DNA of 64,000 nt from Salipiger bermudensis (GTDB taxonomy: Bacteria > Pseudomonadota > Alphaproteobacteria > Rhodobacterales > Rhodobacteraceae): assembly GCF_019801965.1 (NCBI RefSeq), contig NZ_JAHVIA010000001.1, forward strand, positions 124,001-188,000. Direction: 5' to 3'. The position numbers and the translations under genes are program-made. Below are positions 30,901 to 37,720 of this stretch, piece by piece (within the stretch, counting starts at the first letter, position 1; every line of letters begins with the position of its first letter). The notes below the pieces were generated by a model. It was not told the origin of the DNA and did no database searches. It saw only the letters and a program-made list of their open reading frames with translations.

Positions 30901-31953
30901 TCAGCCTGCATCGCGCAGCGCGGGGGCCCCGATCAGCGTGTCGTTCTCCGCCAGAAGCGCCCGCGCCTGCCAGCGCCGCAGCACCGGGCGGGCCGCCGGC
31001 ATCGCCCTGCCATCCCAGACCTTGCGCAGCCCGTCCCACTGGCCGCGCGTCAGACTGGCCTGCGCCCGCGGCGCCGGGCGGTAGCTTTCGCACAAAACAC
31101 CGCTTGCGCTGAGAAGCTGGTGCTCCCCGGTCATCAGATGCACCCAGGTCACCCGCGTGCAGGGCGCACGCCGCACCCCGGCGACACCGCAGAGCGCCGC
31201 GGCCGGCAGCAGCACCTCGGATGTGCCGAAGAGCAGCTCCGCCCGGGGCGATCGCAGCAGCACCAGGTGCCGCGCCGAGAGCCGCAACGGGGCGCTTGCG
31301 CCCAGCACCCCCGGCGGCACCAGGACCGGCGCCCGATGCCCGCCCTGCCCCGATGCCCGCACATGGCCGACCCAGACCAGCGCCTGCCATCCTGCATCGA
31401 GCGTCCAGACCCGGTCGCCGGGCTGCAGCTGCACCGCCGGTCGCGGCCCGCGCTCGGTGCAGAGCTGCGCCTCGGCGGCAAAGCACAGCGGCTGGTCGAC
31501 CCCGGCGGTGTAGATGCCGCTATACTCGACGCCATTCCACGTGCCGAGCGTGACCGAGCTGACCTCGTTCGGGAAGATGTTGGGCGGGATGGAATAATCC
31601 ATCAGCCGCGCGCCCCAGCTGCCGTCGGTGAACAGCGTCACCTCGATATCGAGCCCGGTAAAGACCTGGCCATCCGCCACCATCGTCGAGCCGGTATAGA
31701 GCGCGATCTCGGCCGGATATAGGATCGTCGAGGGGCCGATCACGTATTCGCCGAGATCGCCCGCCGACCCGTCACCACTGTCGAAATCGCGGATCACCCC
31801 GTCGCCATCGGCATCGCGCATGGTGAAGATGATGTATCCGGCGGGATCGATCGAGGTGCCGTTCAGCCGGGCATCGAGATTGTTCTGGTTGAGCGGGTCC
31901 CAGCCAGGATAGATTCCCGACTGGTACCAGCCCCAGGTGGTGACATCGACCAT
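30901..31953 (-). CDS. Hint-domain protein with DxDxDG calcium-type loop
   Basis: 350 aa. The C-terminal region carries a Hedgehog/intein (Hint) domain starting at Cys157 (PLCFAAEAQLCTERGPRPAVQLQPGDRVWTLDAG, in pieces), with block F near HLVLLRSPRAELLFG. The N-terminal ~155 residues include D47-A-D49-G-D51-G, a calcium-binding-type loop. This part is not recognised and is rich in Tyr, Gly and Asn, as in secreted or surface proteins. No classical signal peptide is visible, so type I export is possible. A Hint-type self-cleavage is known for the domain, but the missing C-terminal Asn and the following residue cannot be confirmed here. Confidence 0.83.
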   Translation of the reverse strand: MVDVTTWGWYQSGIYPGWDPLNQNNLDARLNGTSIDPAGYIIFTMRDADGDGVIRDFDSGDGSAGDLGEYVIGPSTILYPAEIALYTGSTMVADGQVFTGLDIEVTLFTDGSWGARLMDYSIPPNIFPNEVSSVTLGTWNGVEYSGIYTAGVDQPLCFAAEAQLCTERGPRPAVQLQPGDRVWTLDAGWQALVWVGHVRASGQGGHRAPVLVPPGVLGASAPLRLSARHLVLLRSPRAELLFGTSEVLLPAAALCGVAGVRRAPCTRVTWVHLMTGEHQLLSASGVLCESYRPAPRAQASLTRGQWDGLRKVWDGRAMPAARPVLRRWQARALLAENDTLIGAPALRDAG

Positions 31954-32519: not shown

Positions 32520-34232
32520 TCAGTGGCCGGCGATCAGGCCCATGCTCTCGAGCTTCAGGATCACCTGGTGCGCGCAGTTGTCGACATCGGTGCCCTCGGT
32601 CTCGACCCGCAGCTCCGGGTTGGCCGGAACGTCGTAGGGATCGGAGATGCCGGTGAACTCCTTGATCTTGCCTTCGCGGGCCAGCTTGTAGAGGCCCTTG
32701 CGGTCACGGCGCTCGCACTCCTCGATCGAGGTCGCGACATGCACCTCGATGAAGGCGCCGAACTGCTCGATGTCCTCGCGCACCGCGCGGCGGGTGGTCG
32801 CGTAGGGCGCGATGGGCGCGCAGATCGCGATGCCGCCGTTCTTGGTGATCTCGGAGGCCACATAGCCGATGCGGCGGATGTTGAGATCGCGGTGCTCCTT
32901 GGAGAAGCCCAGCTCGGAGCTGAGGTTCTTGCGGACGATATCGCCGTCGAGCAGCGTCACCGGGCGGCCGCCCAGCTCCATCAGCTTGGTCATCAGAGCG
33001 TTGGCGATGGTCGACTTGCCCGAGCCAGAGAAGCCGGTGAAGAACACGGTGAAGCCCTGCTTCGAGCGCGGCGGCTTGGTCTTGCGCAGCTCGGCGACCA
33101 CCTCGGGGAAGGAGAACCACTCGGGGATCTCGAGGCCTTCCTGCAGACGGCGACGCAGCTCGGTGCCCGAGATGTTCAGGATGTTGACGCTGTCCTTGTC
33201 GGCGATCTCGTCGGCGGGCTCGTACTGGGCGCGCTCCTCCACATAAACCATGTGTTTGAACGGCACCATCTCGATGCCCATTTCTTCCTCATGCGCCTTG
33301 AACAGCTCCTGCGCGTCGTAGGGGCCGTAGAAATCCTCGCCGGCGGAGTTCTTGCCGGGGCCGGCGTGGTCGCGGCCGACGATGAAGTGGGTCACGCCGT
33401 AGTTCTTGCGGATCAGGCCGTGCCAGACCGCCTCGCGGGGGCCGGCCATGCGCATGGCGAGCGGCAGCAGCGACATCGAGGTGGTGGCGGCCGGGTACTT
33501 GTCGAGGACGGCCTCGTAGCAGCGCACGCGGGTGAAGTGATCGACGTCGCCCGGCTTGGTCATGCCGACGACCGGGTGGATCAGCAGGTTGGCCTGCGAT
33601 TCACGGGCGGCGCGGAAGGTCAGCTCCTGGTGGGCGCGGTGCAGCGGGTTGCGAGTCTGGAACGCCACCACCTTGCGCCAGCCGAGCTTACGGAAATAGG
33701 CGCGCAGCTCGTTCGGCGTGTCGCGGCGGGCGCGGAAATCGTAGTGCACCGGCTGCTGGATGCCGGTCACCGGGCCGCCGAGATAGATCTTGCCGGCGTG
33801 GTTGTGCAGGTAGTTGACCGCCGGGTGCGCATCGTCATCGGCACCGAAGACCTTCTCGGCTTCCTTCGACTTGTTCGGCGCCCACTTGTCGGTGACGGTC
33901 ATGGTGGCGAGGATCACGCCTTCCTGGTCGCGCAGGGCGATGTCCTGACCGATCTCGATGCTGTCGGCGAAGTCTTCCTTGACGTCGAGGGTGATCGGCA
34001 TCGGCCAGAGCGTGCCGTCGGCCAGACGCATGTTGTCGACGACGCCGTCATAATCCTCTTCCGACAGGAAGCCCTTCAGCGGGTAGAAGCCGCCGTTCAT
34101 CAGCAGCTCGAGGTCGCAGATCTGGCGCGGCGAGAGATCGTGCGAAGTCAGCTCGCCGGCTTCGACCTTCAGTTTCTGCGCGCTGTCATACGAGACGTAG
34201 AGCTCGGGAATGGGAGCGAGATTGTTCTGCAT
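32520..34232 (-). CDS. Bifunctional sulfate adenylyltransferase / adenylylsulfate kinase
   Basis: 570 aa from ATG 34232, the usual length of the fused Sat-CysC enzyme of this group. Residues ~10-380 carry ATP sulfurylase motifs (QTRNPLHRAHQELT with the HxxH pair, VGRDHAGPGKN, PLRDLAL-like). The C-terminal ~190 residues are APS kinase with the P-loop FTGFSGSGKST and a later FIEVHVATSIEECERRDRKGLY. It makes PAPS from sulfate in two steps. AGGA lies 8 nt before this ATG, supporting an independent start. However, the frame continues in frame upstream with no stop for 122 codons back to ATG 34598, encoding a MarR-type winged helix (see next entry). The real product may be the longer 692-residue fusion. 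Confidence 0.93.
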   Translation of the reverse strand: MQNNLAPIPELYVSYDSAQKLKVEAGELTSHDLSPRQICDLELLMNGGFYPLKGFLSEEDYDGVVDNMRLADGTLWPMPITLDVKEDFADSIEIGQDIALRDQEGVILATMTVTDKWAPNKSKEAEKVFGADDDAHPAVNYLHNHAGKIYLGGPVTGIQQPVHYDFRARRDTPNELRAYFRKLGWRKVVAFQTRNPLHRAHQELTFRAARESQANLLIHPVVGMTKPGDVDHFTRVRCYEAVLDKYPAATTSMSLLPLAMRMAGPREAVWHGLIRKNYGVTHFIVGRDHAGPGKNSAGEDFYGPYDAQELFKAHEEEMGIEMVPFKHMVYVEERAQYEPADEIADKDSVNILNISGTELRRRLQEGLEIPEWFSFPEVVAELRKTKPPRSKQGFTVFFTGFSGSGKSTIANALMTKLMELGGRPVTLLDGDIVRKNLSSELGFSKEHRDLNIRRIGYVASEITKNGGIAICAPIAPYATTRRAVREDIEQFGAFIEVHVATSIEECERRDRKGLYKLAREGKIKEFTGISDPYDVPANPELRVETEGTDVDNCAHQVILKLESMGLIAGH

Positions 34233-34598
34233 AAATCTGGTCCTGTTAGTGGTGGGAACGTAGCCGATGGCGGTCCCGGTCAATTCGGCATGAAGCGCCT
34301 GGTACTCGAGGAACTTCCGCGCCAGAAAGCGGTCCGTGAGCCGGGCCTTTTCAGCCGCGCCGCGCGAAGTCAGGGAATAGGCGAAACGCTGGCGCCGGTC
34401 GGGCCCCGAACGTTCGCGGATGGTGATGAACCCGGCTTCGGCTGCGGCCCGAAGCTGTGCATTGAGACCCCCGAGCGACACCCCGATGGCCGAGGAGATC
34501 TCCCGCTGCGACGCATCCGGCGACAGATCGAGCTGACGCAGAAGCCGAAACAGCGGGCCTTCCTCATCGGTAATCGGTTTTGCACCAGGCGCGGACAT
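34233..34598 (-). CDS. In-frame winged-helix (MarR, EPS-associated type) module fused upstream of sat/cysC
   Basis: 122 codons from ATG 34598 (TTG 34613 also possible), running directly into the sat/cysC frame at 34232 with no stop codon. The sequence has the MarR-EPS regulator pattern: SQREISSAIGVSLGGLNAQLRAAAEAGFI (helix-turn-helix and wing, read in parts), AYSLTSRGAAEKARLT, then RFLARKFLEYQALHAEL. In relatives these ~110-residue regulators are separate genes near exopolysaccharide clusters. Here the last residues before the sulfurylase start are TTNRTRF. Either this is a fused regulatory module of the enzyme, or two proteins share one frame by internal initiation at 34232. Confidence 0.72.
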
Positions 34599-34802
34599 AA
34601 ATGGACGACTCAAAGTGTGTTCACGAGTGAACGCATTGCACAGACGATCGGCTCAGGGAAGGAAAAATTGCTGCAGGCGCATAATTCGCGCCTGCCGCGA
34701 GCTCAGAGTTGCGAAGATGCGGCAGACCTTCGCCTCAACCAATGATTGTCGCCGCTGCGTCAACGGCCCAAGTCGGCCCCGATTCTGCACTACAACGAGA
34801 AA

Positions 34803-34825
34803 GGGGCGCGCCAGTGGCACGCCCC
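34803..34825 (-). terminator. Hairpin after thioredoxin reductase
   Basis: GGGGCG-c-GCC pairs with GGC-a-CGCCCC around AGT; read on the minus strand it ends in CCCCTTTCTC. It is 39 nt beyond the trxB stop. Confidence 0.55.
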
Positions 34826-34863
34826 CGAAAAAAACTCGCGCAAAATCGCGCCCAGTCGCGGCC

Positions 34864-35868
34864 TTAACCGGCGACCGGGTTCTCGGCACCGTAGCCCAGC
34901 GGCTCGGAGGTGTCCTTGCCCTCGTCGATGCCCTGCTCGGCCAGCCAACGCTCGGCCTCGAGCGCTGCCATGCAGCCCATGCCAGCGCTGGTCACCGCCT
35001 GCCGGTACTTGTGGTCGGTCAGGTCGCCAGCGGCGAAGACGCCCGGGATCGAGGTCGCTGTGCTGTCGGGCTGGGTCTTCACATAGCCGCCCATGTGGGT
35101 CTCGAGCACGTCCTTGACCAGCTCGTTGGCCGGCGCGTGGCCGATGGCGATGAACACGCCCTTGCAGGGGATCTCGGTGATTTCGCCGGTCTGCACGTTC
35201 TTGGCCCGCACCGCGGTGACGCCCTTGGGGCTGTCCTCGCCCACCACTTCCTCAAGCGCGTGATGCCAGAGCGGCACGATCTTCTCGTGCTTGAGCAGCC
35301 GGTCCTGCAGGATCTTCTCGGCGCGCAGCTCGTCGCGGCGGTGGATCAGCGTCACCTTGCTTGCGAAGTTGGTGAGGAAGAGCGCCTCTTCCACGGCGGT
35401 GTTGCCGCCGCCGACCACAACGATCTCCTGGCCGCGGTAGAAGAAGCCGTCACAGGTGGCGCAGGCAGAGACGCCGAAGCCCTTGTAGGCCTCCTCGGAC
35501 TCGAGACCCAGCCACTTGGCGCGCGCGCCGGTGGCGAGGATCACCGCGTCGGCGGTGTAGGTGGTGCCGCTGTCGCCATGCGCCACGAACGGGCGCTTGT
35601 CGAGCTCGAGCTTGGTGATGATGTCGCCGATGATCTCGGTACCCATGGCGCGGGCATGGGCCTCCATGTTGACCATCAGCTCGGGGCCCTGCACCTCGGT
35701 GTGGCCGGGCCAGTTCTCGACCTCGGTGGTGGTGGTCAGCTGACCGCCCGGCTCGAGCCCCTGCACGAGGATCGGCTCGAGCATGGCGCGCGAGGCGTAG
35801 ACACCGGCGGTGTAGCCGGCCGGGCCGGAGCCGATGATCAGGACCTTGGTGTGGCGGGTATCGGACAT
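34864..35868 (-). CDS. trxB: Thioredoxin-disulfide reductase
   Basis: 334 aa from ATG 35868, with GAGGA 7 nt upstream; TTG at 35886 is rejected. The FAD Rossmann motif [13 protein letters not shown] is at residues 13-25, the redox pair is Cys136 and Cys139 in ACATCDG, and the second Rossmann (NADPH) motif [10 protein letters not shown] follows. The C-terminal FAD contact is [21 protein letters not shown]. It uses NADPH to reduce thioredoxin. Divergent from the Lrp-type regulator, a layout that suggests it may be regulated by it. Confidence 0.97.
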
Positions 35869-36176
35869 TGGGCAATCCTCGGACAAAGCGTTTCGCGCTC
35901 ATATAGTCGCCTTGCCAGCGCAGCGAAAGCCCTGCCCCGAAGCGCTTGCCGTTTCCGCCGCAGCGCGGCATAAGTCGCGCGATCCGGACCGGGACGCGCC
36001 TGCCCAGAGCGAGACGTACGGACCGGAGCGGATGACGGCTTCAACCATACAGTGTCATGATGCGAAAAACGGCGCTTCGGCGCAGCAGATCTTAATATTC
36101 TTTCGCCAGAGTGAAACTTTATTGCGCCAGCCTGTCGGGATGCTATAACAATCGCGAAATCAAAAGAGGTATGACG
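35869..36176. other. Divergent trxB-lrp regulatory region
   Basis: 308 nt without a gene. It contains the trxB leader, an AT-rich stretch (about 36080-36160) and a good promoter toward the regulator at 36122-36149. No RNA structure or repeat was recognised. Confidence 0.55.
36122..36149 (+). promoter_or_regulatory. Promoter of the Lrp-type regulator
   Basis: TTGCGC (36122-36127), 16-nt spacer, TATAAC (36144-36149), 27 nt before the start codon. It is the most consensus-like sigma-70 promoter seen in this intergenic region. Confidence 0.5.
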
Positions 36177-36677
36177 ATGCCCGGGAACCGGCTCGATCCG
36201 ATCGACCGCAAGATTCTGGCGGAGCTGCAGGCCGATGGTCGCATGACCAATGTCGAGCTCGCCAAACGTGTCGGGATCTCCGCCCCGCCCTGCCTGCGCC
36301 GAGTGCGCACGCTCGAGGAACAGGGCTTCATCCGCGGCTACCATGCCGATGTCGATCCGCGCGAACTGGGCTTTGAGGTTCAGGTCTTCGCGTCGGTCGG
36401 GCTCCAGAGCCAGGCCGAGGTCGATCTGCGCGCCTTCGAAGAGCGCTGCCGCAACTGGCCGCTCGTGCGCGAGTGCCACATGCTCAACGGCGAGGTCGAT
36501 TTCATCCTGAAATGCGTGGCGCCAGATCTCTCGACCTTCCAGAGCTTCCTGACCGGAGAGCTGCTCACCGCCGAGAATGTCGGCAGCGTGAAGACCTCGC
36601 TGGTGATCCGCGGCGCCAAGGACGAGCCGGGCGTGCCGTTCGACGTTCTGGAGGAGCGGCTGAGCCGCTCCGCCTGA
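36177..36677 (+). CDS. Lrp/AsnC family transcriptional regulator
   Basis: 166 aa from ATG 36177 (AGAGG 7 nt upstream; ATG 36171 is too close). The helix-turn-helix is LDPIDRKILAELQADGRMTNVELAKRVGISAPPCLRRVRTLEEQGFI in pieces. The AsnC ligand-binding domain follows (VFASVGLQSQAEVDLRAFEERCRNWPLVRECHMLNGEVDFIL). Residues are normal for the family. It commonly lies beside trxB in this group. The ligand, presumably an amino acid, is unknown. Confidence 0.93.
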   Translation: MPGNRLDPIDRKILAELQADGRMTNVELAKRVGISAPPCLRRVRTLEEQGFIRGYHADVDPRELGFEVQVFASVGLQSQAEVDLRAFEERCRNWPLVRECHMLNGEVDFILKCVAPDLSTFQSFLTGELLTAENVGSVKTSLVIRGAKDEPGVPFDVLEERLSRSA

Positions 36678-36696: not shown

Positions 36697-37488
36697 TCAG
36701 AGAGAGGTCAGGCTGTCGATCACCTCGCGCGAGCTGCGCGTGAGGCTGAGCTCGCCGAAATCCTGAAGCCGCTCGATATTCGGGAACATCGACAGGAACA
36801 GCGCGGCCGCCGCCTCGCCCATCGGGCGAGTCACGGCCTTGCCGGGGTGATAGCTTTCCATCTCGATGCCGCCGATCTGCACGGTCGCGTGACGGCCGAG
36901 CATGAAGTGGTAGAGCTGCACCGAACCCACCGGCGTCACCTCGACGATGCGGTCGCCATCGGCGAAATCCGACACCGGCACCAGCACGGCTTCGCTGCCA
37001 ATCAGCGATTTCAGACGGTCGCGCCGCATCACCATATGCGCCGCCGGGCCGACCAGCACGTCGACCATCGGGCGGCCGGGGCCGAAGCTGTCTGAGGTGA
37101 TGCGCGACAGCGAGGCGAGGGTCGTCGCATCGTCGGGAATGCCGGGAACATAGGTGGTCGAGCCGATCCAGGTCACCGGCTGGGCGCCGTGGCTGCTCTG
37201 GACGTAATCGCCGGGCAGCAGATCCTCGACGGCGATCGGGCCGCGCACCGTGGGAATCAGCGTGCCGCGCGCGAAGGCGGTGCAGGCTTCCTCGAACAGC
37301 GGGCTGGCCGGAGCGATGTGGCTCTTGAAGGAGATCGAGAGGTCCGGCATCAGCGCGGACGCTTCGTATTTGCGCATCAGCGCCGAGCTGCGGCGCGGGC
37401 GCTCGGCCCGAAGCGGCGCGGGCTTGCGCGGAATCTGGAGAGAAACCCTGCGTGCGACGGCAGAGTGAGACTGGTTAAGACTAGACAC
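36697..37488 (-). CDS. Hint-domain protein
   Basis: 263 aa from GTG 37488, chosen because AAGGGG lies 7 nt upstream. The Hint domain begins at about residue 71: CTAFARGTLIPTVRGPIAVEDLLPGDYVQSSHGAQPVTWIGS (in pieces), with LVGPAAHMVMRRDRLK as block F. Only this domain is recognisable, after a basic N terminus (RRVSLQIPRKPAPLRAERPRR) without a signal peptide. It is the second Hint-domain gene of the window, 4.7 kb from the first, but they share little outside the domain. The Lrp gene ends 19 nt from its end on the other strand. Confidence 0.85.
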   Translation of the reverse strand: MSSLNQSHSAVARRVSLQIPRKPAPLRAERPRRSSALMRKYEASALMPDLSISFKSHIAPASPLFEEACTAFARGTLIPTVRGPIAVEDLLPGDYVQSSHGAQPVTWIGSTTYVPGIPDDATTLASLSRITSDSFGPGRPMVDVLVGPAAHMVMRRDRLKSLIGSEAVLVPVSDFADGDRIVEVTPVGSVQLYHFMLGRHATVQIGGIEMESYHPGKAVTRPMGEAAAALFLSMFPNIERLQDFGELSLTRSSREVIDSLTSL

Positions 37489-37720
37489 GTGAACACCCCT
37501 TAAAGGACTGGTCACAACCGTGTTGGCCCCCACCAACAACAACAGAAGGACTGTTGTAAAACGAATGATGACAGGTAGGGCACAATGCCCCCGGTCTGTC
37601 AAAATTTAACCGGATTTGACCGATCTGGCGCGATCAATCCGGCGCGTGACGAAGGATTGTCACCATATTTGACCCCAATCCGCCGGATCGTGCCGAAAGC
37701 ACGGCGAATCGGGATCGAAA

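Follow-up and report, generated by a model that had tools for sequence, protein, structure and literature searches.

The CDS running from 34598 to 32520 on the minus strand of the window (the whole 64,000 nucleotide stretch of Salipiger bermudensis DNA analysed here, from a genome of 4.83 Mb) joins a MarR_EPS-type winged helix in one frame to a bifunctional ATP sulfurylase/APS kinase (Sat-CysC), and it quite probably encodes an autoregulating PAPS synthase with two isoforms translated from a single mRNA, the longer of which would bind a palindrome in front of the gene and most likely repress it. The long isoform, starting at 34598, should have at its N-terminus a winged helix of MarR_EPS descent and would recognize TGYGTTCAN4TGAACACA before its own start, and the short isoform from 34232, which has its own conserved Shine-Dalgarno-like AGG, should be the plain enzyme. 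Sequence evolution supports a fusion that is translated and selected, an internal start that is selected and a palindrome that goes with the helix family, and the putative 20-bp operator is nearly single-target in the 12 genomes searched; binding of DNA by the long form is what we infer. The features are listed in Table 1.

Table 1. Positions of the predicted features of the fused gene and its upstream region in the window.
Feature	Position	Strand	Basis
Long ORF, MarR_EPS-type winged helix fused to Sat-CysC, 692 aa	32520..34598	-	Open frame, profile matches
Winged-helix (MarR_EPS-like) module, residues 16-106	34281..34553	-	Profile match, AlphaFold2 model, Foldseek
Short product, Sat-CysC alone, 570 aa	32520..34232	-	NF004040, 1043.9 bits
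ATP sulfurylase part (PUA_2 and ATP-sulfurylase domains), residues 131-506	33081..34208	-	Domain match
APS kinase domain, residues 514-665	32604..33059	-	Domain match
Internal start (Met123 in long-form numbering), first codon of the 570-aa enzyme	34230..34232	-	Codon counts
Internal Shine-Dalgarno-like AGGA; AGG is Arg119	34241..34244	-	Codon counts
ACACTTTGAGTCG, a conserved block that overlaps the end of the operator and precedes the long start	34606..34618	-	Per-position counts over 122 loci
Operator candidate TGCGTTCACTCGTGAACACA, 17 nt before the long start; core GTTCAN4TGAAC at 34619-34632	34616..34635	-	Conservation
Terminator-like hairpin between trxB and the fused gene	34802..34826	-	Consensus scan
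Upstream neighbour, thioredoxin-reductase-like (trxB-like)	34864..35886	-	ORF reading

The frame contains no stop and gives 692 aa from ATG 34598 or 697 aa from TTG 34613. Residues 121–690 match NF004040, the bifunctional Sat/CysC family, with 1043.9 bits against a curated cut-off of 669 and over positions 4–571 of the 572 in the model, which places the enzyme in that family; the Sat and CysC domains are both complete and strongly conserved, and ATP sulfurylase and APS kinase activities are predicted. The enzyme part is similar over its full length to NF004040 homologues with solved structures (PDB 2gks, 1i2d and 1m8p), and no match to residues 1–120 is present among the 35 solved sequences listed. 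Residues 16–106 align to positions 6–96 of the 105 in TIGR04176 (MarR_EPS) with 80.9 bits in the full protein and 85.4 bits for the module alone, which is 2.6–7.1 bits short of the NCBI cut-off of 88, and orthologous modules in some other genera pass this cut-off (88–99 bits, with 99 in G272 and 98.1 in G228). The open frame together with the TIGR04176 and NF004040 matches confirms the original prediction, in which a MarR-EPS winged helix was read in frame with a full-length Sat-CysC from ATG 34598. An AlphaFold2 model of the module (mean pLDDT 84.8) has a winged helix and a long C-terminal helix, and the best Foldseek matches in the PDB belong to the MarR family, DNA complexes included (best E 4.1e-5), so that by sequence and predicted fold a DNA-binding domain sits on a complete metabolic enzyme, as in the trigger enzymes. 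The model of the full-length protein is poor (pLDDT 60.7, pTM 0.34), and the packing of helix against enzyme is not readable from it. In pairwise comparison with the window, the uncorrected pN/pS of the module stays under 0.5 in 108 of 109 pairs, with a median of 0.27, and the nine same-genus pairs lie at 0.09–0.20, indicating that the module frame is translated and kept as protein.

The high-scoring MarR_EPS members that were found are standalone genes, several of them in polysaccharide clusters, whereas the module of the window is fused to an enzyme and adjoins a trxB-like gene, and is thus not the standalone gene in an exopolysaccharide locus of TIGR04176. The two kinds are similar over the aligned model positions and have a palindromic core upstream in common; the form linked here to TIGR04176, GYTCAN4TGARC, is present upstream of the gene in the window and is a feature defined in the present analysis, not a published one. 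The fused module reads SLGGLNAQLR (consensus SLGRLNAQLR), while the standalone MarR_EPS proteins mostly have an NY or HY pair at the same place.

Both parts occur in one frame in 13 of 61 genomes, that of the window included, and by query coordinates in at least 57 of the 295 genomes sampled from the family; open-frame length gives the same 57. Because of this recurrence the fusion is neither chance nor an assembly error, and the conserved fused architecture across Rhodobacteraceae that was proposed as a check does exist. One of the 57 (G279) has a TAG reported in the matched stretch, and since the helix and the junction are open in the part fetched (L191) this stop does not lie between the two parts. 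The best 80 of 314 related loci were used, and L005, L053 and L056, which are fused by length and sequence, were counted as fused though one helix pattern missed them. A fused gene is also found at L143, whose record names the actinobacterium Nocardioides marinus; in the tree it shares a zero-length branch with G280, a member of the Rhodobacter-type family, and the record is probably mislabelled.

The original prediction held that a stop between the two parts in close relatives would speak against it, and such a stop was seen in one lineage, L199, the unfused locus that was searched for remnants of the module. Here the helix module has decayed, with a broken frame and stops, and the best operator core has two mismatches, while AGG-N9-ATG and an open enzyme frame are still there in the stretch fetched; operator and helix were lost together at this locus and the internal start was kept. 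In the enzyme tree, a quick tree for which 37 named rows were thinned out before building, at least nine changes between the fused and unfused states are needed among 95 rows (78 fused, 17 unfused), six of them forced by starred branches; a single origin of the fusion was set aside. Repeated loss at the trxB-linked locus would be the simplest reading of the tree, with the direction of change as we infer it. Of the fused loci, 89 of 123 have a trxB-like pattern upstream, as do 17 of 25 of the unfused, so the fused and unfused genes appear to occupy a single locus as alternatives. In G354 a standalone MarR_EPS gene is located directly upstream of an unfused Sat-CysC (L214, minus strand) in a polysaccharide cluster, with a palindrome in front and with neighbours that from their translations we take to be RfaH/NusG-like and polysaccharide genes. 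This two-gene arrangement was considered as the ancestor of the fusion and rejected, since its enzyme copy is 97.7% identical to the other copy in the same genome, and the pair is read as a recent juxtaposition.

The AGGA that had been claimed eight nucleotides upstream of ATG 34232 is present at 34244–34241. In 124 distinct fused loci the internal start codon is ATG (111), GTG (11) or TTG (2), so that the residue varies between Met, Val and Leu and the codons are restricted to bacterial starts. Four codons before it stands an Arg, encoded by AGG in 123 of the 124 loci and by CGG in L188, against 46 of 5337 (0.9%) of the other Arg codons, and among 26 columns with at least 95% Arg the next-highest share of AGG is 12%. 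All 13 Val/Leu codons at the internal start are GTG or TTG, with a mean of 21% over the 73 Val/Leu-type columns (internal start included), but as the next columns reach 91% and 83% this second test is modest when taken alone. The counts for the internal start and the operator come from 165 of 173 loci that could be parsed (missed were L011, L014, L017, L019, L050, L107, L138 and L158), and another pattern that parses the eight missed loci gave a concordant result in 116 distinct fused loci (115 and L171, which has one extra codon and retains AGG-N9-ATG). Unfused homologues start near the position of 34232. Judged by its codons the internal start is selected, and the AGG pattern is what selection for a Shine-Dalgarno sequence would look like.

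The long start is less sharply conserved than the internal one, and no strong Shine-Dalgarno sequence is found before it by reading of the sequence; the conserved block ACACTTTGAGTCG may serve as a weak ribosome-binding site. The operator is nevertheless followed by an in-frame ATG or GTG in 112 of the 114 loci in which operator and helix pattern were both found (9 further loci were unmatched by the helix pattern). The gene should thus have tandem in-frame starts that are both under selection, the internal one by the codon counts and the long one by a selected helix and a start codon that is present, and the earlier suggestion of two products has gained strong evolutionary evidence. A gene of which only the enzyme is made in quantity, the internal AGG-ATG being the true start and the upstream frame a trivially translated vestige, could also have a very strongly conserved internal start, a long start with a weak signal before it and, in the L199 lineage, a decayed helix. 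The helix module is however under purifying selection across genera, the long start is retained behind the operator as counted above, and operator and helix are present and absent together, which makes this explanation very unlikely.

Fused loci have the palindrome TGYGTTCA-N4-TGAACACA just before the long start, in full form TGYGTTCAN4TGAACACA, and the DNA farther upstream diverges. Of the fused loci, 123 can be read at this place (in one more the contig ends too early), and 122 of them have its core GTTCAN4TGAAC unchanged, the other with one mismatch; L217, a fused locus outside that set, has GCTCAN4TGAAC. Among 28 unfused loci, none has the core within one mismatch in 450 nt. As a word the exact core is frequent: 20 fused genomes contain it 95 times and 20 unfused genomes 88 times, in each case more than a reversed-pattern control (15 and 25), so that it may also serve other regulators or standalone MarR_EPS proteins. 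The core alone was accordingly rejected as a mark of the fusion, and the operator claim rests on position and co-occurrence.

In the 350 nt that precede standalone MarR_EPS genes, 28 of the 41 rows carry the related palindrome GYTCAN4TGARC without mismatch; shuffles that preserve base composition only give a mean of 0.05. Seven more rows have it with one mismatch, and 13 of the 41 are without an exact GYTCA core. The rows were picked on family or sequence matches, without regard to the palindrome; one gene is present twice (L205 and L235), and L262 and L263 are outside the scoring. The site lies mostly about 75–155 nt upstream of the matched helix (for example in L206, L214, L215, L216, L228 and L229), four rows have their best site farther away, at 266–326 nt, and L203 and L204 have the variant GATCAN4TGATC. 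GYTCAN4TGARC is therefore put forward as a candidate operator for NCBIfam TIGR04176. As the same core is located upstream of standalone MarR_EPS genes and is missing where the helix is absent, the palindrome before sat-cysC is probably the operator of the MarR_EPS helix family itself and, as judged by motif, an operator stands before the enzyme's own gene, as expected for a trigger enzyme. The coupling of sulfate activation to regulation, suggested at the outset from a DNA-binding module on a PAPS-forming enzyme, is supported by the presence of this MarR_EPS-type operator candidate in front of the gene.

The palindrome might instead be bound by a different regulator encoded elsewhere, the fused helix serving for protein contacts or other DNA targets. 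Binding of the palindrome by the fused helix is a prediction, several fused genomes (such as G203, G207 and G260) also encode standalone MarR_EPS proteins that could act on it, and the core word is frequent also in genomes that do not have the fusion. Such a regulator is nevertheless unlikely, as the core palindrome is found with MarR_EPS genes elsewhere too and goes missing along with the fused helix, and a profile search of the window's genome gave no second MarR_EPS match above 22 bits. For MetR, the motif in the consulted portion of PMC4239095 is ATGAA-N5-TTCAT, with half-sites in the opposite order.

The 20-bp operator was searched for in 12 fused genomes, and in each of them the best match is at sat-cysC. 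With up to two mismatches it is found there in 12 of 12 and elsewhere at one site only, in G203, and sites with three mismatches are present elsewhere in most of these genomes. In the window's genome the operator with up to three mismatches occurs only before sat-cysC, and the exact 14-base core occurs twice, there and at C1:332071 (L059), where no related function was found. Several standalone MarR_EPS genes are located in polysaccharide clusters of relatives, as the original prediction had stated of the separate regulators, with neighbours whose translations we take to be sugar-nucleotide dehydrogenases, RfaH/NusG-like proteins and polysaccharide genes. From this ancestry the long form might be expected to activate or derepress exopolysaccharide or sulfated-polysaccharide genes, but this is highly improbable: the window's genome has no second good operator, its one other exact core is not tied to such genes, and Sat-CysC probably serves general sulfate assimilation. 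An exopolysaccharide regulon was accordingly rejected on the search of the 12 genomes, and the exopolysaccharide link that had been proposed for this enzyme is unsupported. The ancestry of the module is EPS-associated, and its job at sat-cysC is probably not.

The assignment of Sat-CysC to general sulfate and sulfur assimilation is probable since no CysD was found and the window's genome, searched with the whole protein at E 0.001, gave one match. The search for a CysD-type match covered the PAPS-reductase-family proteins, and no ATP sulfurylase apart from Sat-CysC seems to have turned up in this genome (CysN by itself was outside the search). Two proteins of the PAPS-reductase family are presumably CysH-like, one beside what we take to be CysI and the other beside an SqdB-like gene. 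The latter, at L211 (G000:C14, near 13036), adjoins a presumed SqdB-like sulfoquinovose synthase, and is possibly a dedicated sulfite supply for sulfolipid.

The upstream neighbour is presumably thioredoxin reductase, trxB. Three terminator-like sites were found by consensus scan only in 34550–34900, against a shuffled mean of 0.7, and the hairpin between trxB and the fused gene suggests that the latter has its own promoter, although no σ70-like promoter was found in 34550–34900. No Rfam match was found in 34200–34950. An Lrp/AsnC-like regulator, recognized by eye, is divergent from the trxB-like gene (36111–36677, plus strand), and Hint-domain (hedgehog/intein-type)-like proteins, also by eye, flank the region at 30901–31953 and 36697–37602 (minus strand).

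The 14-base core ends 4–43 nt before the first in-frame long start, and 16–20 nt before it in 88 of 112 loci. For a site this close to the start, repression is the usual outcome, and this position is the reason for preferring repression to activation. The same architecture with the long form as activator of sat-cysC is rather unlikely on that ground, while the sign of the regulation is not fixed by the data.

In the autoregulating synthase proposed here the catalytic part would supply dimerisation or oligomerisation and would sense APS or PAPS, the product closing the loop. The best-scoring solved homologues, 1i2d and 1m8p, are fungal ATP sulfurylases that we take to be the Penicillium enzymes, and they give the lead to PAPS sensing: the Penicillium hexamer is described in an excerpt of PMC4220642 as allosterically regulated by PAPS through the APS-kinase domain. 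Tentatively, then, the catalytic half may be the sensor, PAPS or APS bound in the oligomer shifting the geometry of the helices and their affinity for the operator, and the ratio of long to short form, set by the tandem starts on one mRNA, fixing the number of helices in each oligomer; we put this somewhat below an even chance. The short form would supply the bulk of the activity and dilute the helices in mixed oligomers, and in this way might tune the repression.

In the trigger enzyme PutA, a DNA-binding domain on the enzyme serves to control genes of the pathway to which it belongs. The Group II biotin protein ligase BirA likewise combines an enzyme with a DNA-binding domain and controls genes of its own pathway, according to the part of PMC4016012 consulted. 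The protein of the window belongs to a different pathway and has another helix family, and, unlike BirA and PutA, it seems to exist in a form with the helix and a form lacking it, both made from a single gene through tandem starts. The conserved fusion of enzyme and regulator, the tandem starts and the likely operator of its own place it, with good likelihood, among the autoregulating enzymes. No report of the fusion or of a MarR_EPS operator was found in the titles and abstract openings of the open-licence papers listed; one paper under the MarR_EPS family name has, in the portion seen, a single mention and no binding site, and a text find in the available text of a Ruegeria pomeroyi proteogenomics paper gave no mention of the enzyme.

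Inorganic sulfur enters the cell through sulfate activation, and the helix, the operator candidate and the two starts have each been placed at base resolution with comparative evidence. The gene would add a case, apparently undescribed in the open-licence literature searched, to the enzymes that regulate their own genes, and it leads to a proposed operator for the NCBI regulator family MarR_EPS; if the reading is true, GYTCAN4TGARC would be the first DNA target for that whole family. Annotation of such genes with one start would then hide half of their biology. Sulfate activation in many marine bacteria would be controlled by its own enzyme through a one-gene feedback switch, a self-contained device that has been repeatedly kept or lost in bacteria.
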